Shown: positions 5,883 through 20,594 of the stretch, one piece after another
Layout: the number at the start of each line of letters is the position of its first letter
Position numbering within the stretch: the first letter of the stretch is position 1
Source of the DNA: Pectobacterium polaris
GTDB taxonomy: Bacteria; Pseudomonadota; Gammaproteobacteria; Enterobacterales; Enterobacteriaceae
DNA length: 64,000 bases
Direction: 5' to 3'
NCBI RefSeq assembly: GCF_002307355.1
Contig: NZ_CP017481.1
Coordinates: forward strand, 3,286,001 to 3,350,000
Translations under genes and position numbers: made by a program
Notes under the pieces: generated by a model
Seen by the model: only the letters and a program-made list of their open reading frames with translations
The model's database searches: none
Told to the model about the DNA's origin: nothing

Positions 5883-8522
5883 TTAATTATTCGGTGTCGG
5901 AATCGCTGTACCCCATTGCCGCCACTCTTTGGGCTCTTCGTTCCTCAGCAGGAAATGCTTTCCTTCCTGTGCTTTGGGGGCGAGAGGCGTGCTGGGGGGC
6001 GTGGCAAACGCGATACCGCCGCGAATGAACTGCTGGAAGGTTCCGCTCTTGATGACGCCGCCAACCAATCCGAATTCCAGGTTGTAACCTGAAGCCTGCC
6101 AGAAGACGGAATTATCGCGCACCAGATGTTGATAGCGTTTGCTGATGCGTAGCGACACGGCGATACGATCGGAGAGCGTGCCCAGCGACAGCCCGGTTAC
6201 CGTACCGACTTCAATGCCGCGGAACAGCACTGGCGTACCAACCTGCAACGCGCCCGCTTCCGGCGCATCAACGCTGATATTCAAGCCGTCCTGATAGCGA
6301 GAGTCGGAGATGGTGGCTTGTTGCAGCTCAAAACTCCGCGTTACGCTGCCATTACCCGGTTCGACGTTGATATAAGGCTGGAATAGCGTCTCCAGATGAT
6401 TCACGCCGGCGGCGGAAATTTCTGGTGTGACGACGGAAAAACGCGTCCCGGAACGGGCGAAGTTACGCACGTATTCAGGGTAGAGGACGGCCTGCACCAG
6501 CACTTCATTACGCTGCTCGGACAGTTTCAGCGAATCCAACTGACCGATATCGATTCCTAGATAGCGGATCGGCATGCCCGGCGCGAGTTTACTGGCATCG
6601 TAGGTGCGCAGAATGATGCGACTCCCCACGGCGCGCGCCGCCGTTTCGTTGTTATACAGGACGCGTTTCCCGCCTTTAATTTCTGGAGCACCTTCCAGAT
6701 TATCAAAACTGATTGCCCCTTTAAGCGCTCGGTTCAGCGGGGAGGCCTGCACGGTCAGGCCCGACGTATTCAACTGCACACGGGCTCCACCTTCTGCCCA
6801 GAACACGCTGTTTTCCGTCAGCAGCTTGCGGTGTTCGGGACGAATATAAACGTCAACCTCAAAGGTATCCGCCTTCGGCCGCACCCGCATTATTTCGCCC
6901 ACCTGGAACTTACGGTACAGCACGATGGAGCCGTCCTGAATATCCGGCAGGCTGTCGGTCACTAAGGTGAGCGTCGGGGAAGGCGTGGCACCGCGAATGC
7001 CTTCCTCGGCTTTTTCGAGATCGCTGAACAGCGGGTAACGTGTCTGAACGTCACCTTTGCTGCCCGGTAAAACCTGAATACCGCCGCTGACCCATTCTTG
7101 CGCGCTGGCACCCAACACTTGAATCCCATCCAGCCCCATCTTCACATTCACACGGCTGTTCACGATGAATTTGCTGTCGCGGTGTAATAACTGGCGATAT
7201 CGCGGCTCGATCACCAAAAGGAAGCTGACACCCTGTTCGTCCAGCGTGCGTTTCACGACCTGTCCAACTTGGACACCATGCAGCAGCACAGGTTGACCGC
7301 TATCAATCCCATAGCTTTGTGCTGCCGTGAGCTGAATAGAAAGCGCGCCGGGCTGGGTGAGCTGCTGCTGCCCGCTATCCAGCACGTCAAAATGTTGGCG
7401 CGGTTCGCCTTCGCCGGGGATGAGCGTCAGCGTTGGGCCGCTCAGCAGACGTGAAACATTCAGGTCACTGAGCGAAAGCTGGGGCTTGCTGAGTTCGATT
7501 CGTGTGCCTTCACGCATCAGCGAAACCACGGCAGGATCGATGATGAGTTCTCCACTGACCTTGCCGTCATCTGGGTTCAACGTGATTTTATTCAGCGTGC
7601 CGACTTCTAGCCCCTGATACATCAGCGGGGTGCGGCCTTCAGATAGGCTGTCGCCGGAAGGTAAATCTAGCGTGATTTTCACACCGCGCTGGCTTTGCGC
7701 CAGATCGGGATAGAGGCGGTAGGATTGTTCGGCACCCGCATTCTCGCTCTCTTCCGGTGAATCGAACGCGATCGCACCGTTAACCAATGCTGCCAGATTC
7801 TCCATTTCAATTTTTGCGCCGCTGACGCTAATGTCCGCATTAAAGCCAGACACGTTCCAGAAGCGGCTATTTTTCTTCACCAGATGGGTAAAGCGACGTT
7901 CAACCAGCACGTCAATCATCACACCGTGGCTATCTTGGGAAACGGTGTAATCGTAGACTTTTCCCACCGGGATTTTACGGTAGTAAACCAGCGAACCGGT
8001 ATTCAGTGAACCGAGATCGTCTGCATGGAGATGAATCAGCAGTTCCCCGGTATTCACGCGGTATTTGGGCTGCGTATCCAGCGCTGAAAAGCGCTCTTGT
8101 GGCTCGCCGGAACCGGGCATCATGCCGATGTAGTTACCGCCCACCAGCGCATCCAGCCCTGACACCCCAGCGAGAGACGCTTTCGGGGTAACCAGCCAGA
8201 ACTGCGTGCCGCTGCGCAACGCTTCCTTCATGTCGCTTTTGATACTGGCTTCGACCTGAATGGTACGCAGGTCTTCACTCAGCTTGATATTTTGCACGGT
8301 GCCGACTTCCACCCCTTGGTAGCGCACGGGCGTACGTCCGGCGACAATACCGTCAGCGGAGACGAAATCGATAGTGACCGTTGTGCCACGTTCTTGCTGA
8401 TTGGTGTAAATCAGCCAGCCGGCAATCATCAACGCAATCAGCGGCAGCAGCCAAAACGGCGACAGGCGACGCTTGTTCTTCACGGTAGCTTCAGTTGGTG
8501 TCCCAGGCGTATTATCTTGCAT
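5883..8522 (-). CDS. letB: Lipophilic envelope-spanning tunnel protein B (seven MCE domains)
   Basis: The 879-aa protein has a short cytoplasmic N-terminus, one membrane helix (about 23-41) and then repeated MCE/MlaD domains. The recurring strand motif (RYQGVEVGTV, MYQGLEVGTL, LLHGVQVGQV, LYRKFQVGEI, RYLGIDIGQL, LFRGIEVGTV, plus YYRKIPVGKV) can be counted seven times, as in E. coli LetB (YebT/PqiT, 877 aa). In E. coli LetB forms a stacked hexameric tunnel across the periplasm that moves lipids between membranes. It starts 2 nt after letA, so the two are co-transcribed and translationally close. Confidence 0.96.
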   Translation of the reverse strand: MQDNTPGTPTEATVKNKRRLSPFWLLPLIALMIAGWLIYTNQQERGTTVTIDFVSADGIVAGRTPVRYQGVEVGTVQNIKLSEDLRTIQVEASIKSDMKEALRSGTQFWLVTPKASLAGVSGLDALVGGNYIGMMPGSGEPQERFSALDTQPKYRVNTGELLIHLHADDLGSLNTGSLVYYRKIPVGKVYDYTVSQDSHGVMIDVLVERRFTHLVKKNSRFWNVSGFNADISVSGAKIEMENLAALVNGAIAFDSPEESENAGAEQSYRLYPDLAQSQRGVKITLDLPSGDSLSEGRTPLMYQGLEVGTLNKITLNPDDGKVSGELIIDPAVVSLMREGTRIELSKPQLSLSDLNVSRLLSGPTLTLIPGEGEPRQHFDVLDSGQQQLTQPGALSIQLTAAQSYGIDSGQPVLLHGVQVGQVVKRTLDEQGVSFLLVIEPRYRQLLHRDSKFIVNSRVNVKMGLDGIQVLGASAQEWVSGGIQVLPGSKGDVQTRYPLFSDLEKAEEGIRGATPSPTLTLVTDSLPDIQDGSIVLYRKFQVGEIMRVRPKADTFEVDVYIRPEHRKLLTENSVFWAEGGARVQLNTSGLTVQASPLNRALKGAISFDNLEGAPEIKGGKRVLYNNETAARAVGSRIILRTYDASKLAPGMPIRYLGIDIGQLDSLKLSEQRNEVLVQAVLYPEYVRNFARSGTRFSVVTPEISAAGVNHLETLFQPYINVEPGNGSVTRSFELQQATISDSRYQDGLNISVDAPEAGALQVGTPVLFRGIEVGTVTGLSLGTLSDRIAVSLRISKRYQHLVRDNSVFWQASGYNLEFGLVGGVIKSGTFQQFIRGGIAFATPPSTPLAPKAQEGKHFLLRNEEPKEWRQWGTAIPTPNN

Positions 8523-9805: not shown

Positions 9806-10102
9806 CTTTCCTGCGATCCGGTAAAAGGTGTTAAGTCCACGATGGATAACGTATTCACAGCTATTCAGTGTAACTGAAGGCTCACTGAATGATAAATTCA
9901 TAATAAGGCTCTGATCTCTGCCCGATATTATTTTACAGGTGGAAATAGCATGATATGCACGACAGCGATACAGTAAAGCGGATGATTCTTCGCGCGAAGG
10001 CGCGAATCTTATGGCATTCTGTAACCGATGCTAGTGCAGTCTGTGTGGAAACTGTTCGCACTGTTTTGAAAAGACAACAATATACTTTATGAATAAACAA
10101 GC

Positions 10103-10609
10103 ATGAATAAACAAGAATTTTATCAGGATCTCATTCGCGATATGTCATCGCTTATCGCGGATGAAAACCGTTTTATTACGATTTTATCAAACAGTAGTGC
10201 GCTGCTGTTTGAGCGTTTGGATGGGGTTAATTGGGCAGGGTTTTACCTGTTGGATAACGACACGCTTTTCCTGGGACCATTTCAGGGCAAGGTTGCCTGT
10301 GTGCGTATTCCGGTTGGCAAAGGTGTATGCGGTGCAGCGATAGCTGAAAATCGCATTCAGCGCGTGGATGATGTCCATGCGTTCCCTGGTCATATCGCCT
10401 GTGATGCCGCGAGTAATGCTGAAATTGTGCTACCGCTTGTCGTTAACGGGCAACCGATTGGCGTTCTGGATATTGACAGTACCCTTTATCAGCGTTTTGA
10501 CGCAGATGATGAAGAAGGGCTGAAGGCCGTGGTGAGCGTACTTTGTGCTCAACTGGAAGCGAGCGATGTGATGACATTCATCAATTCTCTCACGTTGAAG
10601 CAAGGTTAA
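10103..10609 (+). CDS. msrC: Free methionine-(R)-sulfoxide reductase (GAF domain)
   Basis: The 168-aa single-GAF enzyme reduces free Met-R-sulfoxide, protecting against oxidative damage. Sequence follows E. coli MsrC (YebR): NWAGFYLL (about 40-47), GPFQGKVACVRIPVGKGVCGAA (about 56-77, including catalytic-region cysteines) and HIACDAASNAEIVLPL (about 94-110, with the third cysteine). The start is odd: the first 12 codon bases are preceded by a near-perfect 14-bp copy of themselves, creating an upstream 5-codon frame whose TGA overlaps this ATG. No strong ribosome site precedes the chosen ATG. Next gene downstream is proQ. Confidence 0.93.
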   Translation: MNKQEFYQDLIRDMSSLIADENRFITILSNSSALLFERLDGVNWAGFYLLDNDTLFLGPFQGKVACVRIPVGKGVCGAAIAENRIQRVDDVHAFPGHIACDAASNAEIVLPLVVNGQPIGVLDIDSTLYQRFDADDEEGLKAVVSVLCAQLEASDVMTFINSLTLKQG

Positions 10610-14532: not shown

Positions 14533-15165
14533 TCACAATAATGCGGGATTCAGCGTATATAGCCCGGTGAGTGTTGCTTCTGCCAATACCGGTGCGTTAG
14601 CCAGCGCAGCGCGGACATTCGCTCCGTTAAGTTCACCTTCTATCGTTAAAGCAGGCGTCGCGAGGGCGTAAAGTGTGAAGATGTAATGATGGACAATCGC
14701 ATCATTCCACGGTGGGCAAGGACCATCATAGCCATAATAGGTGCCTTTCATCTGCTCGTCCGTGGCGAACCAACCCGTGTAATCATTGATGCCGTGTCGG
14801 AGTCCTGCCGGTGCATCCGGGCCTGCTTTCCCACGCGGTGTGATACCGCTGGAATGTGAGGCGGCAGGAATTTCATTGATGCTGGCTGGAATGTCCAGCA
14901 ATAACCAATGGTAGAAATCGACTCGTGGCAGAGAGGCGCTAACTTCGCGACCTTCCTGATTCACATCGTCACCGCGGCTGGGTACATCTGGATCGTGGCA
15001 GATCAATACGAAAGACTGTGTCCCTTCGGGCGCGCCGTGCCAGGCAAGATGGGGATTGTGGTTAGAAGACAGCGTAATGTGGCTAGTTGCATTCGGTACG
15101 GCAAAGGCAAATTCGCCTGGGATAGTTTCGCCGTCCTGAAAACTGTGGCTGGAGAGTTGCAGCAT
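14533..15165 (-). CDS. YbhB/YbcL-type phosphatidylethanolamine-binding (PEBP) family protein
   Basis: The 210-aa protein has the bacterial PEBP/Raf-kinase-inhibitor-like fold. Visible landmarks are NPHLAWHGAP (about 37-46), the ligand-pocket motif C-H-D-P-D-V-P (about 55-61), DFYHWLLLDIP (about 82-92), YTGWF, and YDGPCPPWNDAIVHHYIFTLYAL (about 143-165). It probably acts in the cytoplasm; there is no signal peptide. The start follows AAGGAGCTCCACC. The family is widespread but its bacterial role is poorly defined. Confidence 0.85.
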   Translation of the reverse strand: MLQLSSHSFQDGETIPGEFAFAVPNATSHITLSSNHNPHLAWHGAPEGTQSFVLICHDPDVPSRGDDVNQEGREVSASLPRVDFYHWLLLDIPASINEIPAASHSSGITPRGKAGPDAPAGLRHGINDYTGWFATDEQMKGTYYGYDGPCPPWNDAIVHHYIFTLYALATPALTIEGELNGANVRAALANAPVLAEATLTGLYTLNPALL

Positions 15166-15568
15166 GGTGGAGCTCCTTATCGTGATTCTGATGAGTGTTG
15201 AGTCATTATAGAAGAAGCTGTGCGTAATTATTTTCCTAATGCCGTCAGGATAATGCTTTTAGCGGTCAATTTGAGGGGTTTAGGTATGAAGACTCGTTAA
15301 ATGATGTTAAAAAAATGACGTCAGATAGGGAAAAGCAGGGGGGCTGACAAACCCGTCGAGTGGTGATTCGGATACGCTAAACGAGCATTCAAGCCACCAA
15401 CAAGTGTTAACACGTGGACTACGTCACTCATCATCATGAATGTCAGACAACCCATGAAAAACATGAAGGAGTCTGGCCCGTCACTGTGCGAAATGTGTTA
15501 TCCCGATGACATGGATGTGATCCAGCATTTTCATACCACAGGCTTCCACCACAAACGACGGTGTGAAG
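15166..15568 (+). other. 403-bp intergenic stretch at the left edge of the accessory island
   Basis: No convincing gene was found. It holds the PEBP promoter region on the right-hand minus side and only short frames. One 58-codon frame (15436-15612) contains a C-x2-C pair but lacks a ribosome site. The stretch ends at the truncated hydrolase remnant and probably marks the junction between backbone and island. Confidence 0.4.
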
Positions 15569-15834
15569 TTATTCGGTACTTCGTAGTTTATTTGGTTTCA
15601 GTGAAAGAATAATAGAATCAGATGATTGTAGAGAAATTCCATGTCCATTCAATTTCAAAACGGTAAGTATATTATTATGGTGTAAAACTATTTTCTCATA
15701 GGACAATCCGCTATCGTCACAAGTCGAATGGTTATCAGAGATTAGCTTCACATCAAATCCCAATGCCACTGCCCGTCTAACAGATAAATCAACACAATAT
15801 TGTGTGATAAATCCACCAACAATGAGATCCGTAA
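15569..15834 (-). pseudogene. Isochorismatase-family cysteine hydrolase, C-terminal remnant interrupted by an IS
   Basis: Reading the minus strand from the IS junction gives an open frame with the family core: DLIVGG, then TQYCVD (nucleophile cysteine), SVRRAVALGFDV, SDNHSTCD and LHHNNIL. This is the C-terminal half of an isochorismatase-like hydrolase. The 5' part is missing: beyond the IS3 element (17029-17049) the same frame continues only about seven more codons (RLFLGVT) before a stop. The gene was therefore truncated by island sequence as well as split by the IS. It cannot be functional. Confidence 0.75.
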
Positions 15835-15903
15835 GGTAATCCCCCGAAAAAGCGGTGTGTTTATAAGTAGAATTTTCTCGTAATCTGAACTGGGGAGATC
15901 TCT

Positions 15904-16170
15904 ATGAAAAAATCACGTTTTACTGACAGCCAGATCATGTCTATCCTGAAGCAAGCCGAGGCCGGAACACCTGTGGCCGAACTGTGCCGCGAGCATGGTA
16001 TGAGCAATGCCAGTTTCTATAAGTGGCGTTCTCGCTTTGGCGGTATGGACGCCTCCATGATGACCCGTCTGAAAGAACTGGAAGACGAAAACCGTCGCCT
16101 CAAAAAAATGTATGCTGAAGAACGGCTCAAAGCCGAAATCATTCAGGAGGCCATGGCAAAAAAGTGGTGA
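15904..16170 (+). CDS. IS3-family OrfA (DNA-binding subunit)
   Basis: The 88-aa protein has an N-terminal HTH_8-type helix-turn-helix ([16 protein letters not shown]...[20 protein letters not shown], about 5-46) and a C-terminal leucine-zipper-like coiled coil (about 52-85). It ends over an A6G run (16158-16164) just before its stop, the expected site of -1 frameshifting that joins it to OrfB to make the full transposase. Confidence 0.88.
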
Positions 16171-16991
16171 TGCCATCGCGTCGAAAGCAGATGGCACAGG
16201 ACGCGGTCAGAAACCGAAACGTCAGTGTGCGTTTTGCCTGCCAGTTGTTTGTTGTCAGCGAAAGCTGTTATCGCTATCAGCCTCATCTGAATGAAGAAAA
16301 TGACCTCATTGCTGACTGGCTGCTCCGCATCACTGACAGTCAGCGCAACTGGGGATTTGGTCTGTGTTTTTTGTACCTGCGTAATGTCAAAGGCTTCAGG
16401 TTCAACCACAAAAGGGTGTACCGGATTTATTGCGAGTTGTCGCTGAACATGCGAATCAAACCGAAAAAACGACTGAAACGGGATAAACCTGAACCGCTGG
16501 CGGTGCCTGAAAACAGAAACGAATGCTGGTCGATGGACTTCATGCATGATCAGCTATCGGATGGTCGTTCAGTCCGTTTGCTGAATGTTATTGATGACTT
16601 TAATCGTGAAGCGCTGGCAATTGAGGTGGATTTTTCCCTGCCCGCCAGTCGGGTAATCAGAACGCTGGAACAACTCATTGAGTGGAAAGGAAAACCGACG
16701 GCAATACGGTGTGATAACGGGCCGGAATATACGGGGAAGATGCTGATGTCATGGGCGGTTCATCAGAATATAACCCTTCGTTTTATTCAGCCCGGCAAAC
16801 CTCAGCAGAATGCCTATATTGAACGATATAACCGGACGGTGCGTTATGACTGGCTGGGGCAATACCTATTTACATTACTGGATGAATTGCAGAATTATGC
16901 TACTCAGTGGCAATGGTTTTATAATAACGAACGTCCGAATATGGCGTTGAATGGCTACACACCGATGCAGCATATTCAACGCATAACCTGA
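16164..16991 (+). CDS. IS3-family OrfB (DDE transposase catalytic part)
   Basis: The 275-aa frame overlaps OrfA and is normally made as an OrfAB fusion by -1 frameshifting. The rve integrase core has its DDE triad visible: D in WSMDFMHD (about 119), D in [10 protein letters not shown] (about 190) and E in [16 protein letters not shown] (about 225). No stop or frameshift interrupts it, so the element looks potentially active. Confidence 0.88.
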
Positions 16992-17164
16992 TTCTACTTA
17001 TCACCTCCGCTAAAAATGGGGGATTACCGTAACTCCTAAGAAGAGTCTATAGTTTTAATTTTTTCATTGAAATGTATGTGTTATTTTTATCTATCTGTGT
17101 TTTTATACGCTTTCATATACAATTAAAATGTGATCGTATGGGACTACGACCACATTTGAGAGTA

Positions 17165-18610
17165 TTAATTAATAAATGTCTTCATAATGGTCACGCCATT
17201 GTGGGAACCATGAACTAATTCACGCACAATTACGTTAAGCCCACTATCTGTAACCTCCACAATAGAATAACTATTGCGCTCGCCATTCATCCGTTGTTGC
17301 TGATCTACGCTAACACTACCGTTTGATATAATTCTTAAAGACTTTCCGCTATTAAAATTGCTTCTTTCATATTGTGTGTAGTTTGACATATTAAAAATAT
17401 GCTGATGTCCATGCATAACTAGTTTTATATTTTTTGAAATCGCTGATTTCATAATCCTTAACGAATCTACAGTCAAAGAAATTCCTTTCTTATTTAAAAT
17501 GTCAATATCGTTTACCGGAAGAAGATGATGATGCAGTGCTAGCATCCTAAAAGTCTCCTTGTCATTACTTGACAGATTATTTATTGCATCAATTCCTTCT
17601 TGCCCGACATAGCCGTACTCTGTCCATTCCGATGTGCTTACTATTCCACACGAGTTCAAAATGGTTATATCTAGATTTTTATCAATGTCTTTAATTTTAA
17701 AGTGTGCATTGTAAGATAAGTTCTCTCGCCAAGATCTACCTGATAATTCTTCAATAAATATTCTATAATCTCTCTCAAATCTTTTATCAACTTGATTGAT
17801 AATATTCTCACTAGAATCAGCGTGGTATCTGACCATGTCATGATTACCTGGTAAGGCTAATATCTTATCGTGTTCTATGTTAAGAGCATTACAGAGGCTA
17901 TGGATCTCATCCTTTATTTTTAAACTATGAGGTGTGTTCCAATCCCCTTTAGTTGTTAAATCACCGGTAATCAGTAGTAGTGAGAACTTATCGGCTATAC
18001 CAAGCTCACCTAAGTCTTTCATTATTGATCTTGTTAGTGAAGATTTAGTCTGTCCGAATTTATTAATTTCACTTTCATAACAGAATCCATAGTTTTCTCC
18101 AAAGTGTAAGTCTGAAATAACCAATATATGATTTTTATTTAACTCAATTCTGTTATTGATCATATCCTTATGATTGTTTTTATTTTTATTACCTTCTTCT
18201 AAAAAAAGATATGTTGGGTTTCCACTTTTTGCAAATGCTTCATCAAAATCTAAATTGTATCTAGGAAATATTTTTAAATTTTTTATGAGGAACCAAGTGT
18301 TAATTTCTTTCGACTTTTGACTATAATAGCTTGGTACTTGTGATAAATTAAGTTCACTTGCTTGATTATGTATAACCCTAGAAACTGTAGCTTTATATAT
18401 CTTATTGAGATCGCGATTGATTAAGAAAATATAATCATGTTTGTATGTATCCAAATACTCTAACTCAATATCAGAAAGGATCTCTTTTTCTTGCTTCCAC
18501 CACCCCCACCAAACAGCGCCACAATTATCAATGATAGATTGATGTTCTTCTATTGTGTCTATACCATCAGTAGTATCTCTAAATCTTAAGATTAAAATTC
18601 CTGTTTCCAT
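17165..18610 (-). CDS. Calcineurin-like metallophosphoesterase with a novel N-terminal domain
   Basis: The 481-aa protein has two parts. Residues about 1-140 form an unrecognised domain rich in aromatics (AVWWGWWKQEKE, YIFLINRDLNKIYKATVSRVI), possibly PUA/ASCH-like. Residues about 160-470 form a complete calcineurin-like phosphoesterase: SDLHFG (I), TGDLTTKGD (II), LPGNHDM (III), LALHHHLLP (IV) and MHGHQHI (V), so all metal ligands are present. The start ATG 18610 follows AAGGAAG; an upstream in-frame ATG lies inside the preceding gene and lacks a ribosome site. It overlaps the methyltransferase gene by 19 nt and is clearly AT-rich. Substrate (nucleic acid, cyclic nucleotide or other phosphodiester) is unknown. 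Confidence 0.8.
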   Translation of the reverse strand: METGILILRFRDTTDGIDTIEEHQSIIDNCGAVWWGWWKQEKEILSDIELEYLDTYKHDYIFLINRDLNKIYKATVSRVIHNQASELNLSQVPSYYSQKSKEINTWFLIKNLKIFPRYNLDFDEAFAKSGNPTYLFLEEGNKNKNNHKDMINNRIELNKNHILVISDLHFGENYGFCYESEINKFGQTKSSLTRSIMKDLGELGIADKFSLLLITGDLTTKGDWNTPHSLKIKDEIHSLCNALNIEHDKILALPGNHDMVRYHADSSENIINQVDKRFERDYRIFIEELSGRSWRENLSYNAHFKIKDIDKNLDITILNSCGIVSTSEWTEYGYVGQEGIDAINNLSSNDKETFRMLALHHHLLPVNDIDILNKKGISLTVDSLRIMKSAISKNIKLVMHGHQHIFNMSNYTQYERSNFNSGKSLRIISNGSVSVDQQQRMNGERNSYSIVEVTDSGLNVIVRELVHGSHNGVTIMKTFIN

Positions 18611-19515
18611 TTTAACTTCCTTGAATAAGGTGGAGAGGGGATGTCCCATTCTTTTAGATTAGTTATTTTTTCATAAATCTTGTTAAGGTCATCAGTTTCT
18701 ATAAGCTGATCCAATAATTTTATTAGAGCATTTGGATTATCTAATTGGCCTACTTCATTTTCGGAGCTCCATAGTTGTATAAGCTCTCTACCTTTCACTC
18801 TTTTGCTAACAGATGGCCAAATCCAGCCATTTGCTTGATCTAATTTATCTAATTTTATAGACCCAATCTCATTATTGTTTTCATCGCACTTAACGGCGAT
18901 TTGATAATCGTTGAATAAATATCTTATCCATTTAGACTCATTAGGAGTGATTTTTTTTAATGCAGGGGTACTATTTATGGTGATTATTACAAGATCTCCT
19001 TTTCTCGTTTGCAGGTGCTTATTTTTAAAGTTTGACATTTTCTCAAATAAAGGTGTTTCATAATCAAGTGAACTTTCAAAATATTCAATATCTGCCCATT
19101 TTAGTACCCATTCAAACAACTCTTTTTTTTCTGAAATAGCTAAAGGTCGTGTGTTGTCAGGCCATATAGATAGGAATATTTTAGCCCCAATTCCAGCTGA
19201 AATTGCGGCCCACGACAACCATCTGTAGTAGACGTCTAAATACCACGGGGGATCCATTACAACAAAGTTGTAGCTATCTTTAAGTGGTTCTGAGAAGTTA
19301 ATATCTATCAGTATATGATTTTTTAAGTCCTGTACCGGATGGCTATCAACTAAAACCACCTCCTTTCCCTTTTCTGAGAGTATTGCTGCAACAGTTGGCA
19401 CTCCTACAGAGAGCGTTTTCCCGTCAGCACAGTATTCGACAAGCCTTTCAGCTGTTTTATCAGAAAACCTCCAGTCATAATCAAGAGGATGTGGATTTGG
19501 TCTTATGGTTATCAC
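18592..19515 (-). CDS. Putative DPPW-motif methyltransferase
   Basis: The 307-aa protein has a Rossmann-type start (KTLSVGVPTVAAIL...KEVVLVDSHP, about 33-60) and a catalytic-type VVMDPPWYLD motif (about 84-93). That is the NPPY/DPPW signature of amino-group methyltransferases acting on adenine, cytosine or protein side chains. The layout is closest to N6-adenine-methyltransferase-like proteins, but the family is not recognised with certainty. The C-terminal third has a second region (GWIWPSVSKRVKGRELIQLW, about 224-243). It heads a two-gene operon with the metallophosphoesterase, overlapping it by 19 nt. Its composition is AT-rich relative to flanking backbone, consistent with transfer. No restriction enzyme is seen next to it. 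Confidence 0.65.
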   Translation of the reverse strand: MITIRPNPHPLDYDWRFSDKTAERLVEYCADGKTLSVGVPTVAAILSEKGKEVVLVDSHPVQDLKNHILIDINFSEPLKDSYNFVVMDPPWYLDVYYRWLSWAAISAGIGAKIFLSIWPDNTRPLAISEKKELFEWVLKWADIEYFESSLDYETPLFEKMSNFKNKHLQTRKGDLVIITINSTPALKKITPNESKWIRYLFNDYQIAVKCDENNNEIGSIKLDKLDQANGWIWPSVSKRVKGRELIQLWSSENEVGQLDNPNALIKLLDQLIETDDLNKIYEKITNLKEWDIPSPPYSRKLKWKQEF

Positions 19516-19943
19516 AATTATTCCTTAATGTGAAAAGTATAAGTCTAATAAAAATGAGACATGATTTTATGATATTTAATTTCTAATTCTGATATCGATT
19601 TTTAAATCAAGAATATTTCAATTTTTGGATGAAAATAATAAAGTTTTAGTCCTCTAATTTGAATGATTTTCTTGGGATACATATATAAGTAGTTAACCCG
19701 ATGCTTCTTTTTAGTGAGTTTAACATTAAAAAATCACTCTTTTATAGCACTGATGTTAGTAAGAGTGAAGTTGAAAAGTAAGCTATTTTAAGCTACCGAC
19801 CTTACAGTAAACTCTGTTAAAAATTTATCAAACAATTCTTTACACTGCCCATCTTTCATTTTTATTCAATTTAAACAGTGCATTACGTGATTGTTAATGA
19901 TGAGGGATGACTGATATTCTTCACCAGCGGTGACGCATGATCG
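19516..19943. other. AT-rich intergenic stretch upstream of the methyltransferase operon
   Basis: About 430 bp with no convincing gene on either strand. It probably contains the operon promoter reading leftward and the junction with phage-like debris on the right. I see no clear repeat or attachment site. Confidence 0.4.
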
Positions 19944-20240
19944 TAAAAAAACCGGCTTTCGCTGGTTCACGCTGCCGGTTCGTCACACTTTGGCAGCCAG
20001 TCGGCGTTGCTGTCGTCCGTCAGATCGAGATTGGTCTGTATACCTGACTTCGTGCGCCGCTGAAGGTAGTTCAGCCCGTACTCGCGCAGTATGCTGGTGT
20101 TACCCATGTGCAGGCCGGTCGGCTCAGCGGTTGAAAGCAGATTGCCGCAGAAGTCCACCATCGGATCGGCGTCGCGCTTAATGCGCATCGCTTCACCTGA
20201 ATTCTGCTGTGACTGAAGCTGCGCGCGGGCTTCCTACGGC
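19944..20240 (-). pseudogene. Phage-like gene remnant with an in-frame amber codon
   Basis: The minus strand carries a coherent frame (73 codons from an ATG at 20188: MRIKRDADPMVDFCGNLLST..., ending PKCDEPAA). It extends upstream in frame through a TAG at 20234-20236 to FNQP. Composition is GC-richer than the adjoining operon. Just past the stop is a terminator-like hairpin (AACCAGC GAAA GCCGGTT then T7). I do not recognise the family; it reads like the 3' end of a phage gene. Confidence 0.4.
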
Positions 20241-20260
20241 TGGTTGAACCGCAGCATCAG

Positions 20261-20528
20261 TTGATGCACTATGGTGAATATGTCACATACGTAACGGTAG
20301 CCAGAGATGTTGCGGCTGTTATGGGTAAAACCAGCATTTCAGCTCAGGCTACCGGTGGGGCGGTGGGTCACAACCCAATATCTATTATCATTCCCTGCCA
20401 TCGGGTAATCGGTACCAATAACAGTTTGACTGGGTATGCTGGGGGTATCGCAAAAAATTAAGTTACTTGAACTGGAGGGTGTGAACACCGTAAATATGAG
20501 CGTCCCTATCAAAGGGACTGCTTTATGA
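20261..20528 (+). pseudogene. Methylated-DNA--protein-cysteine methyltransferase (MGMT/Ogt-like) fragment, frameshifted
   Basis: The frame from 20261 encodes the C-terminal DNA-binding domain of an O6-alkylguanine transferase: HYGEYVTY, GGAVGHNPIS, the active-site PCHRVIG, and LTGYAGG. After YAGGIAK a six-A run (20453-20458) puts the frame out. Removing one A restores KIKLLELEGVN and a normal end at 20528. The N-terminal domain is absent. It is therefore a truncated, frameshifted relic squeezed between phage debris and potD. Confidence 0.7.
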
Positions 20529-20594
20529 TAATGATCGTCTTACCCGATCGGATAAAGAAGCAGCATTGCTATCGAGTGACACGATATCTCGCGA

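Follow-up and report, generated by a model that had tools for sequence, protein, structure and literature searches.

In the genome of Pectobacterium polaris we describe a two-gene unit that we regard, with high confidence, as a real and conserved module within the DS-9 family of anti-phage systems. It lies in a 64,000-nucleotide stretch (NCBI RefSeq assembly GCF_002307355.1, contig NZ_CP017481.1, positions 3,286,001 to 3,350,000), which we call the window and number from its first letter. The first gene encodes a Rossmann enzyme with a DPPWY motif, probably an amino-methyltransferase, and the second encodes a protein that joins a PUA-like domain to a metallophosphoesterase. DS-9 itself was published as an anti-phage system by DeWeirdt, Mahoney and Laub, and the catalytic residues of its component DS-9A are reported there to be required for phage defense (Science 2026, PMC13092281). 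We read the pair as a defense module because the pairing is conserved, the two proteins have diverged to matching degrees, their neighborhoods are mobile or defensive, and the phosphoesterase is homologous to DS-9A over its full length. The best explanation we can offer, and one that we put forward tentatively, is a mobile anti-phage module of the DS-9 family with a swapped partner and a restriction-modification-like mechanism.

The gene pair and its conservation

The enzyme gene (18592..19515, minus strand, 307 amino acids, GTG start) comes first and the phosphoesterase gene (17165..18610, minus strand, 481 amino acids) second, on the same strand. The open frame of the phosphoesterase extends to 18649 (17165-18649, 494 amino acids), but we favor the start at 18610 because close homologues have 481 amino acids and a ribosome-binding site, AAGGAAG, stands before it (18616..18622, minus strand). 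A similar site, AAGGAAT, precedes the enzyme gene (19520..19526, minus strand; both sites were read from the sequence), whose start residue is the same in close homologues. With the corrected start, the stop of the enzyme gene and the start of the phosphoesterase gene overlap by 19 nucleotides (18592..18610, minus strand), a candidate arrangement for translational coupling. The overlap of the two genes and their AT-rich composition had both been noticed in a first-pass annotation of the sequence, and both stand: GC content is 0.36 in the enzyme gene and 0.32 in the phosphoesterase gene, against 0.50-0.55 in most flanking kilobases. At third codon positions the values are 0.31 and 0.28, compared with 0.61-0.63 in the flanking genes potD, so annotated in a plasmid record that matches it, and what we take to be prc. 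A terminator scan at the pair found none, and promoter-like sites (7 against 14.8 expected) were uninformative.

The co-occurrence count that the first-pass annotation had proposed gave a clear result. The enzyme gene lies directly upstream, on the same strand, in all nine non-DS-9 PUA-phosphoesterase loci inspected (the window, L006, L024, L025, L026, L027, L028, L029 and L034), which include plasmids of Hyphomicrobiales and Rhodobacterales. The 19-nucleotide overlap is exact in seven of them (the window and L024 to L029), with an overlap of 1 nucleotide in L034 and a gap of 16 nucleotides in L006. On a larger scale, we compared the best 120 of 334 phosphoesterase matches with the best 120 of 1080 enzyme matches. 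Thirty-four of the 120 listed enzyme clusters share an equal-sized longest contig with one of the 120 listed phosphoesterase clusters (chance expectation: mean 0.8, maximum 5 in 1000), these links being drawn from the equal size of the longest contigs rather than read as loci. Moreover, across 41 pairs, of which 34 were linked in this way, enzyme and phosphoesterase have correlated distance matrices (r 0.84; 0 of 2000 permutations), and the value is still 0.78 when the two most divergent pairs are left out. In IMG/VR only two contigs hold either protein and each carries both, as does the sole such record in the phage collection. Among the 11 plasmid records with the enzyme, four carry the phosphoesterase (Sinorhizobium, Agrobacterium, Rhizobium and Loktanella), and the remaining seven have the layout of a radical SAM/ASCH operon, described below (Pfam on L030 only). 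The pairing is old and has been inherited together across distant bacteria.

One genome weighs against strict pairing in the wider family: G674 has an enzyme relative, and no phosphoesterase was found in that genome. The relative (L044) comes from a GC-rich genome. The pair is rare, the enzyme being present in its own genome only among 98 genomes and in one other, G674, in a phylum sample of 398. PF24405, the Pfam family of the PUA-like domain, occurs in three of 394 genomes of the order sample (its own, G059 and G101) and in two of 398 of the phylum sample (its own and G101), and the complete genomes of E. coli gave no DNA match to the pair.

By its sequence, the phosphoesterase of the pair belongs to the DS-9A family. 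It matches the DS-9A model NF053862 (DS9_1_antiphage) over model positions 1-486 with an E value of 6e-98, scoring 328.8 bits, under the equivalog cut-off of 420; an enzyme-paired phosphoesterase from Agrobacterium reaches 430 bits on the same model. The DS-9A of one DS-9 locus (L035) has the same layout of PF24405 followed by PF00149. A search with NF053862 at E values up to 0.001 gave matches in 106 of the 369 class-sample genomes, none above the cut-off, and is not specific at that threshold, as 8 of 14 control genomes also match; all listed matches but that of G000 are partial, covering the phosphoesterase part or, in G1122, the PUA part. In the four DS-9 loci examined (4 of 12 DS-9-like plasmid records: H47, H49, H50 and H58), a HAD gene takes the place of the enzyme in every case, and this partner has weak matches to nucleotidase families. 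No DS-9B-type HAD gene was found beside the pair in the window: there is no frame of at least 80 amino acids between the phosphoesterase gene and the adjacent insertion sequence (IS), and the sole such frame between the enzyme gene and potD has 83 amino acids (19930-20181) and lies over a relic. In an E. coli plasmid (L036:5397-7044), DS-9A itself looks interrupted, with its PUA and phosphoesterase parts in separate open frames, next to a HAD gene annotated as a normal gene.

The neighbors of the pair elsewhere are of the kind seen in defense islands and mobile elements. Gabija genes directly precede it in Agrobacterium (L027; GajA 3e-203, GajB 8e-181), and a CARF-kinase-ATPase protein and NaeI restriction genes lie near it in Loktanella (L029). 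On the L024 contig a primase of satellite type stands upstream, whose domains resemble those of P4-type satellites. The first-pass annotation had suggested a defense pair in an island, and this part is well supported by pairing, divergence, neighbors and DS-9A homology; that one enzyme would mark or sense a nucleic acid and the other cleave one, as it also suggested, is a possible reading; its statement that no named system could be matched was wrong, given the DS-9A family.

Two further arrangements were observed. Beside the Agrobacterium pair (L027:11199-13482) lies a gene with a P-loop kinase and an adenylosuccinate-synthetase domain, next to DUF7002, and similarly sized genes, the first annotated as adenylosuccinate synthetase, lie beside the Rhizobium pair (L028:5589-7888); these are possibly another defense or nucleotide system. 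At L073:3348-7781, a metallophosphoesterase-SIR2 fusion follows an 813-amino-acid protein with an ATPase-looking start, possibly another defense pair.

The two proteins

The N-terminal domain of the phosphoesterase protein had been called unfamiliar; it is in fact the Pfam family PF24405, 'Pua-like' (112.1 bits against a gathering threshold of 27, E value 3e-32). It spans 18140..18595 on the minus strand (residues 19-170 of the 494-amino-acid frame; 18137-18595 in a second search). This assignment comes from Pfam only, the fold lists being filled by the phosphoesterase domain. Among modification sensors, PUA-superfamily domains are described as forming the largest group, with YTH as the member for N6-methyladenine (PMC11037411), and we regard the domain as a candidate modified-base reader.

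The calcineurin-like phosphoesterase domain follows (PF00149, 50.7 bits against a gathering threshold of 21.5; 17396..18127, minus strand). The full set of metallophosphoesterase motifs claimed at first sight is borne out: D167, H169, D217, N256, H257, D258, H361, H362, H400, H402 and H404 (481-amino-acid numbering) mark the domain, the tested motif residues are kept in every one of the 41 aligned sequences, that of the window among them, and the census also covered 120 relatives. The model of the whole protein has a predicted local distance difference test (pLDDT) score of 85.7. Its closest solved folds are Lmo2642, GpdQ, Rv0805 and SMPDL3A, with Mre11 lower; they are phosphodiesterases and phosphatases that act mainly on small substrates. 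The substrate of SMPDL3A is given as cyclic GMP-AMP (PMC13092281).

Stand-alone PF24405-like proteins were found as an extra gene of EcoRV-/MunI-type loci (L042:7551-8075, L043:7717-8241 and L072:7971-8453). All three cases among the genomes examined are type II restriction-modification loci that encode N6-adenine methyltransferases. The PUA-like gene of G101 and that of G059 have as neighbors an EcoRV-type nuclease and an N6-adenine methyltransferase of the D12 type; the one of G1122 is accompanied by a MunI-type nuclease and an MT-A70 methyltransferase. When 275 genomes of the order were searched for EcoRV nucleases, hits came from G101 and G059 alone, so the PUA-like neighbor is present in two of two, and these two PUA proteins are 67% identical and so not fully independent cases. 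The domain in G1122 scores under the Pfam cut-off (19.1 against 27 bits), and a profile of our own matches it at 6e-6. When the G101 protein was searched against all plasmids (E values up to 0.001), its one match lay in the Rhizobium pair protein and covered the PUA part of it only (37% identity, E value 3e-9), which directly ties the stand-alone and fused forms. No relative of it was found in viral contigs or phages. At L072 the MunI-type locus is flanked by a stretch that occurs twice in opposite orientations (7600-7870 and 9860-10120), the second time close to the end of the contig; this may be a palindrome produced by assembly.

The enzyme had been described as a Rossmann protein with DPPW, and its model (pLDDT 90.5) agrees, with methyltransferase and BpsA folds filling the match lists. 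The predicted fold is that of a class I S-adenosylmethionine-dependent Rossmann methyltransferase with DPPW as motif IV, and S-adenosylmethionine binding is putative. The closest fold is BpsA, in a comparison that reached little beyond residue 188, and METTL5 and an archaeal m4(2)C rRNA synthase are among the structural neighbors. The pattern D-x-PWY is present in all 120 enzyme relatives listed, as DPPWY in 113 of them, and D57, D88, P90, W91, Y92, R123 and E158 are kept in 41 of 41 aligned sequences. DPPW-type motifs belong to enzymes that methylate exocyclic amines. The enzyme stays below the gathering threshold of the N6-adenine methyltransferase-like family PF10237 (15.7 against 23.2 bits), which its long relatives in L034 and L006 pass. 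A search of PDB sequences with its profile gave at best 2ift (E value 0.1), in PADLOC the enzyme had no match and the phosphoesterase matched PDC-S60 at the level of a domain only, and neither protein of the pair was matched in PHROGs.

Aminopropyl transfer of the BpsA type was also considered: the structure favors it, and the absence of GDDD argues against it. This motif is reported as indispensable in Tk-BpsA (PMC12979288); it occurs in none of the 120 enzyme relatives listed, where the aligned place reads G-x-P-S/T in 107, and in L006 the residues GSPT align with the GDDD of BpsA. We consider the enzyme a probable amino-methyltransferase.

Proposed mechanism and its rivals

The mechanism that we propose, tentatively, has three steps. 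The enzyme would methylate an exocyclic amino group of a nucleic acid base and thereby mark self, or else mark the substrate; next, the PUA-like domain would read whether the mark is present or absent; and the two-metal phosphoesterase domain would hydrolyze phosphodiester bonds of nucleic acid judged foreign. In this scheme we infer the methyl transfer and the base that accepts it, reading by the PUA-like domain, cleavage of nucleic acid, and protection against phages by the pair. Pairing of the two genes is observed; in a type II restriction-modification system the phosphoesterase would have to be the cognate endonuclease. Modification-dependent (type IV) restriction, in which reader and nuclease work without a methyltransferase of their own, does not fit, the enzyme gene being present in nine of nine pair loci. 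It is tempting to speculate further that the pair represents a new restriction-modification architecture, in which a two-metal calcineurin-like cutter is aimed by a PF24405 base reader and a BpsA-like DPPWY N-methyltransferase sets the mark, that DS-9 is a sister form with the marker replaced by a HAD phosphatase, and that PF24405 is a base reader overlooked so far, which EcoRV- and MunI-type systems also employ as their third component; this fuller picture we regard as doubtful.

The chief rival, which we think unlikely though deserving of serious weight, is a nucleotide or second-messenger system in which the phosphoesterase hydrolyzes a nucleotide, plain, cyclic or modified, the partner (the methyltransferase here, the HAD phosphatase in DS-9) makes or processes that small molecule, and the PUA-like domain binds the modified nucleotide as a ligand. 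The small substrates of Lmo2642, GpdQ, Rv0805 and SMPDL3A suit it, as do the HAD hydrolase partner of DS-9 with its weak nucleotidase-family matches and the operon in which distant enzyme relatives are accompanied by a small P-loop kinase and a radical SAM protein. The authors of DS-9 themselves propose as yet unrecognized signaling molecules (PMC13092281). Against this, the unit consists of two genes only, with no recognizable nucleotide cyclase, and the same PUA-like family is present in type II restriction-modification loci; the DPPW-type motif is also that of enzymes methylating exocyclic amines. A target in RNA is less probable still. Here the enzyme would modify tRNA or rRNA and the PUA-phosphoesterase would cut or heal RNA, in abortive tRNA-targeting defense or in repair. 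RNA-end processing by metallophosphoesterases is a known feature of repair systems, METTL5 and the archaeal rRNA synthase are structural neighbors of the enzyme, and PUA domains are generally linked to translation and bind RNA (PMC7641849), but the two-gene unit includes no ligase or kinase gene and the stand-alone PF24405 copies adjoin DNA restriction-modification genes.

The strict partner-first order and the overlap in seven of nine loci would also be expected if the phosphoesterase were a growth inhibitor held by contact with its partner and freed on phage infection, as in toxin-antitoxin pairs, with the Rossmann protein in a non-catalytic role, and exchange with an unrelated HAD protein suits a binding partner. 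We find this improbable, since the D-x-PWY of 120 of 120 listed relatives and the enzyme residues kept in 41 of 41 sequences argue for catalysis. Finally, the pair could have no part in defense and serve mobile-element maintenance, or be a metabolic pair hitchhiking on plasmids and satellites. Its rarity (the enzyme is in 1 of 98 genomes, its own) is compatible with this, and the pair is not known to have been assayed against phages; yet full-length DS-9A homology, recurrent defense neighbors and a patchy distribution typical of defense genes make it very improbable.

The target of the DS-9 phosphoesterase is left unsettled in the published account, and a pair with a probable base-modifying partner, taken together with the presence of the same PUA-like family in adenine restriction-modification loci, makes that question directly testable. 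PF24405 is thereby nominated as a base-reader family. Of the elements of this proposal, DS-9 is already known. The open-licence literature searched did not show the partner exchange, the association of the PUA-like family with adenine restriction-modification or the enzyme's BpsA-like fold; among open-licence full texts (titles and abstract starts), the DS-9 paper aside, no pair of a methyltransferase and a PUA-phosphoesterase is described.

Insertion site and relation to known systems

The stretch of the window from the PF01161 gene to potD (15166-20594) is a variable site in the genus, being empty, filled by AraC, MFS or Ogt-type genes, or occupied by an IS and the pair. It is empty in G011, G006 and G019, where the PF01161 gene adjoins potD. 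In G018 (L038) it holds AraC and MFS genes (Pfam) and a third gene matching the window relic at 20270-20560, and in G002 (L039) an Ogt-like gene (Pfam) and an MFS-sized frame. Short leftovers of these site genes remain in the window at 15485-15569 and 20270-20560. The latter (20270..20560, plus strand) is the 3' relic of an O6-methylguanine methyltransferase gene, intact in G002 at the same site, as the first-pass annotation had recognized. It was also right about an IS nearby, which is an IS3-family element bounded by its end repeats (15835..17028, plus strand) with GTAA on either side, and which is not part of the module. The left neighbor, taken for a split hydrolase, is an intact PF01161 protein (14533-15165, 210 amino acids, the same length in five relatives). 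The supposed phage gene, a high-GC frame at 19970-20233, could not be identified as such by a Pfam match, though many genomes of the genus contain a section of it (19983-20083) with roughly 72-77% identity; it is probably a phage or mobile-element relic.

A conserved operon of cyanobacterial and alphaproteobacterial plasmids carries genes for DUF6932, an XRE-IrrE regulator, DUF4186, a radical SAM protein, a long DPPW enzyme, an ASCH protein and a P-loop kinase (plasmids L030, L031, L032, L033, L037, L050 and L051; cyanobacterial contigs L003, L004 and L005 by pattern of open reading frames; Pfam on L030). Like the pair, it has a distant enzyme relative (25-29% identity) followed by a PUA-superfamily gene. 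In contrast, that gene is of the ASCH type and not PF24405, no phosphoesterase is present, and radical SAM, DUF4186 and kinase genes are added. It has the look of a system that modifies bases or nucleotides, and nothing was found on it in the DUF4186 literature (titles and abstracts).

The type II loci of G059, G101 and G1122 likewise bring together an adenine-type methyltransferase and a PF24405-family protein. There the nuclease is a separate EcoRV or MunI enzyme; the pair instead has its PUA-like domain and a metallophosphoesterase in one polypeptide, and its methyltransferase is of another family. Similarly, the branched-chain polyamine synthase BpsA (PF01861) resembles the enzyme in fold, but it carries GDDD where the enzyme relatives mostly have G-x-P-S/T. 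DS-8, a NACHT-metallophosphatase, shares with the window protein the phosphoesterase superfamily fold, as does human SMPDL3A, and DS-9A and DS-8 are homologous according to their authors (PMC13092281); the window protein has a PUA-like domain and a partner gene in place of NACHT. The closest relative is DS-9, with which the pair shares a full-length PUA-like and metallophosphoesterase protein, a two-gene operon and a mobile defense-island setting. The two differ in the partner: DS-9 has a HAD phosphatase in second place, and the pair has a DPPWY Rossmann enzyme in first place.

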